From positions 3,100,001-3,164,000 of the forward strand of contig NZ_CP024621.1 of the NCBI RefSeq assembly GCF_009846525.1: a stretch of DNA of 64,000 nt, given 5' to 3'. Below the pieces are notes generated by a model. That model was given only the letters and a program-made list of their open reading frames with translations. It was not told the origin of the DNA and did not search any database. Positions 44,658-62,235 of the stretch are shown piece after piece. The stretch is from Halomonas meridiana (lineage in GTDB: Bacteria > Pseudomonadota > Gammaproteobacteria > Pseudomonadales > Halomonadaceae). Each line of letters begins with the position of its first letter. Position 1 is the first letter of the stretch. Position numbers and translations under genes: made by a program.

Positions 44658-44733
44658 TGGTGGGTCGTGTAGGATTCGAACCTACGACCAATTGATTAAA
44701 AGTCAACTGCTCTACCAACTGAGCTAACGACCC
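44658..44733 (-). tRNA. tRNA-Lys (anticodon TTT), distal copy
   Basis: This 76-nt cloverleaf has acceptor GGGTCGT/ACGACCC, D-loop region AGCTCAGTTGGTAGAGC, anticodon loop CTTTTAA (anticodon TTT), T-arm GTAGGTTCGAATCCTAC, discriminator A and encoded CCA. It is identical to the second copy 110 bases upstream and is probably processed from the same transcript. Confidence 0.97.
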
Positions 44734-44843: not shown

Positions 44844-44919
44844 TGGTGGGTCGTGTAGGATTCGAACCTACGACCAATTGATTAAAAGTCAACTGCTCTA
44901 CCAACTGAGCTAACGACCC
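44844..44919 (-). tRNA. tRNA-Lys (anticodon TTT), promoter-proximal copy
   Basis: Identical in sequence to the copy at 44658-44733, including the encoded CCA. It is the first gene of the two-tRNA unit; its own promoter lies at 44936-44964, directly next to the insertion element. Confidence 0.97.
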
Positions 44920-60134: not shown

Positions 60135-61406
60135 TTACCCACCATACACGTCATTAATGGTTTTCAGCGGGTAGTGAGCCGGATACGGCTTGCGGGCCAC
60201 GCCAGAGTCGACCGCCGCTTGGGCCACTGCTGATGACACACGCGCCAGCAGGCGGATATCCACCGGGGTGGGAATGATGTAATCACGCCCAAAGCTCATC
60301 TCGGTACGCTCGTAGGCGTTCAGCACTTCCTGAGGCACCGGCTCGCGGGCCAGGTCTTTCAGCGCGTGAACGGCGGCCAACTTCATAGCTTCGTTAATGC
60401 GCGTGGCGCGTACATCCAGCGCGCCGCGGAAGATGAACGGGAAGCCCAGCACGTTGTTCACCTGGTTCGGGAAGTCCGAACGGCCAGTAGCCATGATCAC
60501 ATCTGGGCGCGCTTCGCGGGCTACGTCCGGGTGAATTTCCGGGTCGGGGTTGGTGCAGGCGAAAATCACCGGGTCAGCGGCCATTTTCTTCACCTGCTCC
60601 GCAGAGAGCAGGCCCGGGCCAGAAAGGCCGATAAACACGTCTGCCCCGTCGATGGCATCGTCCAACGTGCGCATGTCGGTATCGCGGGCAAACTCCGCCT
60701 TGTACTCGTTGATACCGTCACGGTCAGTGTGAATCACGCCGCGACGATCCAGCATGACCAGGTTCTCTTTCTTGGCACCGCAGGAGATCAGCAGACGCAT
60801 GCAGGCAATCGCCGCCGCGCCTGCGCCCATGCAGACGATTTTCACGTCTTCAATCCGCTTGCCCGCGATATCCAGCGCGTTGAGCATGCCCGCAGCGGTC
60901 ACAATTGCCGTGCCGTGCTGGTCATCGTGGAATACTGGGATGTTGCAGCGTTCAACTAGCGCCTTTTCGATCTCAAAGCACTCAGGCGCTTTGATATCTT
61001 CCAGGTTAATACCACCCCAGGTATCGGCAATGCGGGCAACGGTGTCAATAAACGCTTGCGGGCTTTCGGCGTCTACTTCGATATCAACGGAGTTAATGCC
61101 CGCAAAACACTTGAACAGCACGCCTTTGCCTTCCATGACCGGCTTGCTGGCCAGCGGGCCAAGATTGCCCAAGCCCAGAATCGCACTGCCGTCCGAAATA
61201 ACCGCGACCAGATTACCTTTGCCGGTATAACGGTACGCATTTTCCGCTTCGCGAGCGATTTCGCGAACCGGCTCGGCAACGCCTGGGCTATACGCCAGTG
61301 CCAAGTCCCGAGCGGTAGCAGTGGGCTTGGTCAACTCCACGGAAAGCTTACCGGGGATCGGTTTAGCGTGATAATCCAAAGCTGCCTGCTTGTTTGCATC
61401 CGTCAT
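60135..61406 (-). CDS. maeB: Malic enzyme, short form without phosphotransacetylase domain
   Basis: This 423-residue enzyme decarboxylates malate to pyruvate. Visible signatures are SPGVAEPVREIA, the metal/malate-binding FHDDQHGTAIVTAAGMLNAL, the nucleotide-binding VCMGAGAAAIACMRLL and IFACTNPDPEIHPDVA. It lacks the C-terminal PTA-like domain of the E. coli MaeB (about 330 extra residues). ATG at 61406 is chosen over TTG at 61412. An operator-like site at 61478-61492 resembles the aceE sites. Cofactor preference (NAD or NADP) is not decidable from sequence reading. Confidence 0.94.
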   Translation of the reverse strand: MTDANKQAALDYHAKPIPGKLSVELTKPTATARDLALAYSPGVAEPVREIAREAENAYRYTGKGNLVAVISDGSAILGLGNLGPLASKPVMEGKGVLFKCFAGINSVDIEVDAESPQAFIDTVARIADTWGGINLEDIKAPECFEIEKALVERCNIPVFHDDQHGTAIVTAAGMLNALDIAGKRIEDVKIVCMGAGAAAIACMRLLISCGAKKENLVMLDRRGVIHTDRDGINEYKAEFARDTDMRTLDDAIDGADVFIGLSGPGLLSAEQVKKMAADPVIFACTNPDPEIHPDVAREARPDVIMATGRSDFPNQVNNVLGFPFIFRGALDVRATRINEAMKLAAVHALKDLAREPVPQEVLNAYERTEMSFGRDYIIPTPVDIRLLARVSSAVAQAAVDSGVARKPYPAHYPLKTINDVYGG

Positions 61407-61477
61407 GGTCAAGGTCTCATCAGCCTAAAGTAGAAAAGTCGTATCAGAATATAGAAAAACCCTAGGCGCCTCAAGCA

Positions 61478-61492
61478 CGTAGTAAACTTACC
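61478..61492. promoter_or_regulatory. Operator-like site upstream of maeB
   Basis: CGTAGTAAACTTACC shares 11 of 15 bases with the palindrome TGTAGTAAAGCTACA upstream of aceE, and CGTAG (61478-61482) also pairs with CTACG (61492-61496) to give a longer dyad. It lies about 75 bases before the maeB start. Confidence 0.4.
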
Positions 61493-61599
61493 TACGAAAC
61501 GACCGTTTTAGCCACTTTCCCCTCCATTTCGAAACTTTTCTACGTTATTTACTGCAACTTATGCTTCACGCTATCAGCTATAAAGGTTTCCTTATTGAT

Positions 61600-61795
61600 G
61601 CAGTGCAGTATTTTTGGAAATAAATTCCAATAGAACAACAAGAGAGTTATCCACACCCACTGGGCGCAATCGCCCTGTGGAAAAGCTAACAAGAAACAAA
61701 GAGAGATTGCTTGGTCAGCGAGGAGAGATCGATGCGTCCGCTATTGGCAGCGGGAGAGAGCGGCCGACGAGGCTAACCAAAAGCGTAGCCTTTTA
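61600..61795 (+). ncRNA. Candidate structured small RNA (unrecognised) with DnaA-box-like arms
   Basis: No good gene fits here. The plus strand offers a chain of hairpins: TTGGAA/TTCCAA (61614-61630), a compound stem formed by CCACA and GGGCG pairing with CGCCC and TGTGG (61651-61680), CCGCT/AGCGG (61738-61753), and a terminator-like AGGCTA/TAGCCT stem followed by TTT (61770-61794). The compound stem contains TTATCCACA (61647-61655) and TGTGGAAAA (61676-61684), both DnaA-box matches. Several GGA motifs occur. A 60-codon frame (61614-61796) lacks a ribosome-binding site. The RNA reading is inference. Confidence 0.3.
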
Positions 61796-61800
61796 GGGAC

Positions 61801-61829
61801 AAAAAGCCCACGCCGTGGCGTGGGCTTTT
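61801..61829. terminator. Bidirectional terminator downstream of rpmE
   Basis: A 13-bp perfect stem (61802-61814 with 61817-61829) has A4 and T4 arms, giving U tracts on both strands. On the minus strand it is the rpmE terminator, 45 bases after the stop. Confidence 0.8.
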
Positions 61830-61874
61830 GCACAGAGCACGAGACGTGCCTGCGATAGGCTGAATCCGTTAGGA

Positions 61875-62090
61875 TTAGCCGCGCTTGATAGCAGCGCCGA
61901 AACGCTTGTTGAAGCGCTCTACGCGGCCACCAGTGGTCGCTTGCTTCTGCTTACCGGTGTAGAACGGGTGGCAGTTGGAGCACACGTCCAGAGAGAAGTC
62001 CTGACCAGAAGTAGAACCGACCTGGAAGCTTGCACCGCAAGAACAGTTGGCGGTGACCGTGTTGTAATTCGGGTGGATACCTTGTTTCAT
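61875..62090 (-). CDS. rpmE: 50S ribosomal protein L31 (zinc-binding form)
   Basis: This 71-residue ribosomal protein has MKQGIHPNY at its start, the four-Cys zinc set in NCSCGASF and [13 protein letters not shown], and the basic C-terminus [11 protein letters not shown]. The Cys set marks the zinc-containing paralogue (not YkgM). ATG at 62090 follows GAGG. It is divergent from priA, the usual arrangement in gammaproteobacteria. Confidence 0.96.
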
Positions 62091-62235
62091 CTTGAGCCTC
62101 ATGAGCTATATGCCGCCACCTGATCCATTGCCAGGCACCGCATACGGGTTTGAAAAAACTGCTAACCGGTTAACCGCTCCATCCGATAGATTCAGAGCGG
62201 CCGCGCATTCTAGCAAACTAATCGCCGGAGGCCAA

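Follow-up and report, generated by a model that had tools for sequence, protein, structure and literature searches.

DnaA is the protein that starts chromosome copying. Two kinds of site, datA and DARS, have been defined in enteric bacteria, and a DARS is recognised by its promotion of ADP release from DnaA. Within the parts of the cited papers used here, the minimal datA comprises boxes 2, 3 and 7 together with one IHF site, and DARS1 and DARS2 possess a three-box core in which box I is opposite to boxes II and III, with the same spacing (PMC5742627). The DARS2 core is described, in the excerpt cited, as conserved among gamma-proteobacteria related to E. coli (PMC4245941). In E. coli, boxes are also enriched near oriC, and non-coding box loci are tied to titration by the authors of that study in the portion cited (PMC12371093).

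The site described here lies within a 64,000-nucleotide stretch of DNA, analysed as a whole and referred to below as the window. A preliminary description, made from the letters alone, placed it in the gap between maeB and rpmE, as the coordinates of both genes bear out (Table 1). The same description identified two DnaA-box-like sequences in opposite orientation, and these prove to be exact boxes that face each other across a 20-bp spacer, 29 bp from start to start. Both match the high-affinity consensus TTWTNCACA exactly and would be predicted to be occupied by DnaA. They are also the only occurrences of TTWTCCACA in the window, for which dinucleotide shuffles give an expectation of 0.39. 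The gap is long, at 465 bp versus a median of 338 bp, because it contains ∼160 extra bases between a conserved block upstream of maeB and the rpmE terminator. That block (61560-61631) separates maeB from the pair, and includes a 17-bp dyad, TTGGAAATAAATTCCAA (61614-61630), a similar form of which recurs in many species, whether or not they carry the insert; the dyad is perhaps a maeB operator. The nearness to priA that was originally pointed out looks incidental, and we reject a link to that gene: the boxes occupy the rpmE-maeB gap rather than the region before priA.

Table 1. Positions of the features of the maeB-rpmE gap in the window
Feature	Position	Strand	Remarks
maeB	60135-61412	-	Pfam malic enzyme domains
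Lineage-specific addition carrying the boxes	61632-61795		Poorly conserved outside the boxes; absent from most aligned relatives, which have a shorter gap
DnaA box 1, TTATCCACA	61647-61655	+	Exact consensus; unchanged across the window and its four nearest relatives
Box spacer	61656-61675		20 bp; variable sequence, with some self-complementarity in the window; 8 of its 20 columns unchanged across five species
DnaA box 2, TTTTCCACA	61676-61684	-	Faces box 1; unchanged in the same five sequences as box 1
rpmE terminator hairpin	61801-61829	-	Symmetric; 91 of 102 gaps have such a hairpin oriented for rpmE
Third TTWTNCACA match, TTTTGCACA	61826-61834	+	Overlaps the terminator end; role uncertain
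rpmE	61875-62102	-	Ribosomal protein L31

The closest geometry is found at the origin of the same genus. The dnaA-side oriC pairs likewise consist of two facing boxes, 31-33 bp from start to start in L209 and in L201, L203, L205, L206, L208 and L211 (in which the dnaA side was recognised by eye from L209), compared with 28-31 bp in the gap. Most of these stretches carry further boxes and all of them precede dnaA, whereas the window has a pair that is far from oriC. Like the window site, DARS1 and DARS2 are non-coding sites outside oriC with a facing pair. Two E. coli stretches, which we take from their locations to be DARS1 and DARS2, contain the facing pairs TTATCCACT-ATTCC-TGTGGATAA and TTATCCCAG-CTTTC-TGTGGATAA, in both cases with a 5-bp spacer. 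In contrast, the window spacer is 20 bp and no third consensus box adjoins the pair, and on both counts we do not assign the site to DARS. datA resembles it as an intergenic DnaA-box site outside oriC, and the proposed effect, removal of DnaA, is alike; compared on boxes alone, datA has three boxes, plus IHF, whereas the insert has two consensus boxes, with a third match at the terminator. The scattered titrating boxes of E. coli are, in the part of the account cited, similarly high-affinity, outside oriC and enriched towards it, but the two window boxes form a face-to-face pair that has been kept together (PMC12371093). The window site therefore looks, by its sequence, like a DnaA-binding control site, one that we place outside DARS and regard as no more than a possible datA. 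Among open-licence papers, our literature search returned none joining DnaA, Halomonas and DARS.

We compared the gap across 102 loci, comprising 78 species of the window's genus, whose named records include Vreelandella stevensii, V. songnenensis and V. aquamarina, and 24 other Halomonadaceae loci. Five loci (L128, L129, L191, L195 and L048) were lost from this set, with maeB not found in the stretch; 13 named loci (L027-L035, L037, L038, L043 and L047) were left out as repeats of genus genomes, and loci of other families (L065-L106) lie outside it. Defined as facing boxes with at most one mismatch per arm, the pair is present in 12 of the 102 gaps, every one of them in the window's genus, at 28-31 bp from start to start. 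Box 1 reads TTATCCACA or TTTTCCACA in 11 of these gaps and carries one mismatch in the other (L131), while box 2 reads TTTTCCACA in 10 and TTGTCCACA in 2. A further pair, in L154, has boxes 39 bp apart with two mismatches; it was ascribed to chance and excluded from the count. The sole further consensus match near the window pair, TTTTGCACA, lies 142 bp past box 2, and a third match of this type occurs in 7 of the 12 pair-bearing gaps versus 2 of the 90 pair-less gaps.

Drift has altered the surrounding DNA but spared the boxes. Between the window and its four nearest relatives none of the 18 box positions varies, whereas 32 of the 146 other insert positions are invariant (hypergeometric P 4e-11); these 32 comprise 4 of 15 columns in the leader, those of the spacer (Table 1) and 20 of 111 in the 3′ part (61685-61795). 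Across eleven species no column of the 3′ part is invariant (0/111), and 12 of the 18 box positions are. Box 1 contributes only 4 of its 9 positions to that figure, probably because the automatic alignment slips; in another alignment the boxes are in register. This pattern looks more like the footprint of a DNA-binding site than that of an RNA. The DnaA-binding idea in the preliminary description thus gains comparative support, from boxes kept amid drift and from the recurrence of facing pairs (see below), with binding itself predicted from the consensus match.

On a tree of maeB (5′ part, all 102 rows), the pair undergoes seven changes of state; one group table set the pair rows only against 12 other long gaps. 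The 12 pair rows sit in one part of the genus, where their neighbours have either long gaps with decayed boxes or short gaps, and the window clusters with three other pair-bearing species with support of 100/98. An early gain followed by several losses would fit this distribution, which does not prove it. The pair is patchy within its part of the genus and some neighbours have decayed boxes; it is therefore dispensable.

The dnaA frame is at 180-1646 of the contig and carries three Pfam DnaA domains, so oriC was taken to lie at the contig junction. In front of dnaA is a facing pair, TTGTCCACA/TTATCCACA, with boxes 32 bp apart (L209, Pfam-checked). The window site is 698 kb from oriC, 36 percent of the way down one arm. 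The genome contains 30 perfect TTATCCACA boxes, compared with about 8 in a reversed control, and these lie closer to oriC than a uniform distribution would place them (mean 500 kb versus 965 kb). The bias holds for the 27 boxes outside 5 kb (P 3e-5) and for the 23 beyond 30 kb (P 0.0016). On the far side from oriC, a 1.31-Mb stretch (about 1.85-3.16 Mb) is devoid of TTATCCACA (P 0.00025).

Facing pairs recur across the genus. Scanning 82 genus genomes for TTWTCCACA pairs with a spacer of 3-30, alongside reversed-pattern controls, we find 145 facing pairs (control 0), no diverging pairs (control 1) and 12 same-direction pairs in 11 genomes (control 1), although shared ancestry means that counts from these genomes are not independent. 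Eighty of the 145 facing pairs have a spacer of 3-6, 5 bp among the matches listed, and occur once per genome in 80 of the 82 genomes. They look like one ancestral site, of which only the copy in L108 was located. That copy (L108:1501-1523, genome 1104152-1104174) reads TTATCCACA-GATAG-TGTGGAAAA, with a 5-bp spacer, and lies between tRNA-Glu and a hydroxyisobutyrate-dehydrogenase-like gene. Because its geometry equals that of the facing pair in E. coli DARS, this type of pair may, by analogy, be the DARS of the genus.

At a spacer of 7-36, 49 of the 82 genomes together contain 66 facing pairs; 64 of these pairs have a spacer of 18-24 and none has one below 18. Intergenic examples lie beside a META-domain gene (L198 and L202), beside a UvrD-like helicase gene (L200) and, in L204, between mnmC-like and YciI-like genes, the latter assignment being Pfam-checked in L204 only. 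Pairs beside mnmC-like/YciI-like genes are seen in three species (L107:1501-1523, genome 801110-801132; L204; L207), with differing spacers. By eye, 14 of the 66 pairs are alike (the G032b type) and look like one site. In L199 (2001-2037) a facing pair lies inside a rubredoxin-reductase-like coding sequence, with similar pairs, again by eye, in 14 genomes; L199 was the one read of the G032b-like set of 14 sequences, and because its pair is coding the set was given no weight as supporting loci. In a sample of 145 genomes from the order, 13 have a pair with a spacer of 7-36, among them the window's genome, a second member of the genus and two of the three genomes from other genera of the family.

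Some of the spacers are self-complementary. Of the 66 pairs, 55 entered this analysis, with near repeats and the two longest left out. The 36-38-bp pairs (38 sequences) have 117 of 303 possible spacer pairs in register, compared with 77.5 expected in shuffles, and 69 of 191, compared with about 48, once the 14 G032b-like sequences are removed. The 40-42-bp pairs show no excess (40/159 versus 37.1). The window spacer itself has none of 8 in-register pairs, and its whole hairpin is stabler than hairpins with shuffled spacers (P 0.025).

We favor, as fairly probable on sequence grounds, a DNA-level DnaA-binding site whose likeliest role is titration. Box 1 and box 2 would each hold one DnaA, and the site would soak up DnaA once replicated, acting as one of several titration sites biased towards oriC; DnaA at the pair would perhaps also affect maeB. 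DnaA binding, titration and the absence of a functional transcript are what we infer here, and two boxes may make too weak a site for titration to be affected.

The alternative that survives best, although we consider it doubtful, is that DnaA acts at the pair as a transcription factor and controls transcription of maeB, or read-through from rpmE. The pair lies 235-272 bp upstream of the maeB start codon, past the conserved block and the 17-bp dyad. Its distance to maeB hardly varies among pair-bearing species, the intervening block is conserved, and a similar pair stands in front of dnaA, a gene at which DnaA autoregulation is known in other bacteria. However, the block is conserved also in pair-less species, so maeB does not need the pair, and facing pairs of other lineages adjoin unrelated genes, namely the META-domain, UvrD-like helicase and mnmC-like genes described above.

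The preliminary description had read the stretch as a possible new structured RNA; it is probably a pair of facing DnaA sites instead. We grade a structured RNA in the gap as unlikely, and no more firmly than that because the minus-strand z and the inner-hairpin counts favor structure. A small structured RNA on either strand, built around a hairpin of box with box, is quite improbable. The hairpin series proposed for 61600-61795 is not supported on the plus strand, where the minimum free energy of -49.2 is close to the shuffle mean of -48.0 (z -0.30) and 71 of 200 dinucleotide shuffles fold as well. The minus strand of the same interval does beat its shuffles (z -3.05, 0/200; -3.45 in a second run). 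When 14 gaps are folded, that of the window plus those of 13 relatives, z reaches -2 or below in only 3 cases on the plus strand and in 4 on the minus strand; low values occur in L150 (-4.88 and -3.43), L138 (-4.44, minus), L133 (-2.76 and -2.96) and L134 (-2.47, plus). As for the compound stem said to be built from the two boxes, such a hairpin can fold, but the hairpin predicted for the plus strand of the window joins CCAC to GTGG and GGGCG to CGCCC instead of one box to the other.

Along the 12-row core alignment no compensatory change is seen between the box arms, and their third pair is mismatched in 7 of the 12 species; constraint of each arm by the DnaA consensus would produce this picture. 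The inner hairpin has 67.0 percent standard pairs compared with 55.3 percent in shuffles (0/500), outscores all slid versions of itself and includes 12 doubly changed cells, but its structure was drawn from the window row alone, which favors that structure. Titration needs none of these signals, neither the minus-strand z, nor the inner-hairpin counts, nor the self-complementarity of the 36-38-bp spacers.

The terminator-like stem with a T tract noted near 61795 turns out to be a weak stem with four T, and inspection of the alignments by eye shows no conservation of it. What is conserved is the rpmE terminator, just beyond the interval: 70 of the 78 gaps within the genus have a hairpin with a T tract when read towards the end of an rpmE transcript. 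Being symmetric, and following on the plus side, this hairpin could also stop plus-strand transcripts, a point in favor of an RNA. A simple terminator scan carries little weight here because it missed this conserved terminator. No known RNA family matches the gap at gathering score: an Rfam covariance-model search of the whole window yields only two tRNAs at that level. The two tRNA genes (44661-44733 and 44847-44919, minus strand) score equally and are 113 bases apart. At relaxed E-values, all matches in the gap fall below gathering scores and cover the rpmE terminator; one of them, to Leu_leader (61766-61831), also spans the T-tract stem near 61795. Before rpmE, at 62096-62144 (minus strand), there is a match to the L31-Gammaproteobacteria leader at 20 bits, compared with a gathering score of 33.2. 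No sigma-70-like promoter was found in 61300-62100, weak evidence against an RNA because shuffles expect only 0.4. With the plus strand folding like its shuffles, no gathering-score match in the gap and the 111 bases of the 3′ part devoid of an invariant column in eleven species, the small structured RNA of the preliminary description is not supported. Open-licence papers yielded none linking a Halomonas small RNA to rpmE.

Nor is the stretch explained by a peptide. A conserved peptide encoded at 61614-61796 (plus strand), named at the outset as grounds for abandoning the RNA reading, was not found by tblastn in the 101 other gaps. Matches occur in 4 of the 11 other pair species and cover 19 to 37 of 60 residues; the best, in L118, spans 31 residues at 58 percent identity, and that in L116 holds an internal stop. 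The sole other match is of 11 residues (L186), and the peptide has no Pfam family. We also rejected a 47-residue frame at 61549-61692 (minus strand), which stays open throughout in L116, L118 and L125 (60-79 percent identity) but is interrupted by stops in L122 and many other gaps, and has no Pfam family; it mostly covers the conserved maeB upstream block and is therefore probably not a gene.

A palindromic DNA element able to form a hairpin or cruciform, either mobile or repeat-like and with ends that resemble boxes by chance, would account for the excess self-complementarity of the 36-38-bp pairs and for the appearance of comparably sized facing pairs at loci that vary between lineages. We regard it as very unlikely. 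No second copy of the insert is found in the genome at E 0.01 (10 of 19 candidates scored in one search), and the only second match of the insert query is the terminator's own inverse. The spacer sequences differ from locus to locus, and the conserved letters are exactly the DnaA consensus. Neither the window spacer nor the 40-42-bp pairs share the excess, and 14 of the 38 spacer sequences look like copies of one coding site. That the insert is leftover DNA with two box-like words is hardly credible, since, although at least two TTWTCCACA occur anywhere in the window in 10 of 100 shuffles and the pair is patchy in the genus, both boxes are conserved against drift and, in 12 species, face each other within a narrow range of distances.

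Sites with DnaA boxes away from oriC are already familiar, and the window site is a new, lineage-specific one. If the pair binds DnaA as predicted, the non-coding sites that control replication gain an example from beyond the enteric bacteria, and such sites would be seen to come and go within one genus. The pattern across the 82 genomes, in which pairs are mostly facing, none diverges at a spacer of 3-30 and distances are narrow, provides a simple finder of candidate DnaA-control sites; judging from a few searches of open-licence papers, it may be new. More tentatively, and at odds we put well short of even, Halomonadaceae such as this genus would use facing pairs with an 18-24-bp, often self-complementary spacer, at sites that vary between lineages, as DnaA-control loci unlike datA and DARS, perhaps working via a symmetric DnaA complex or a cruciform.
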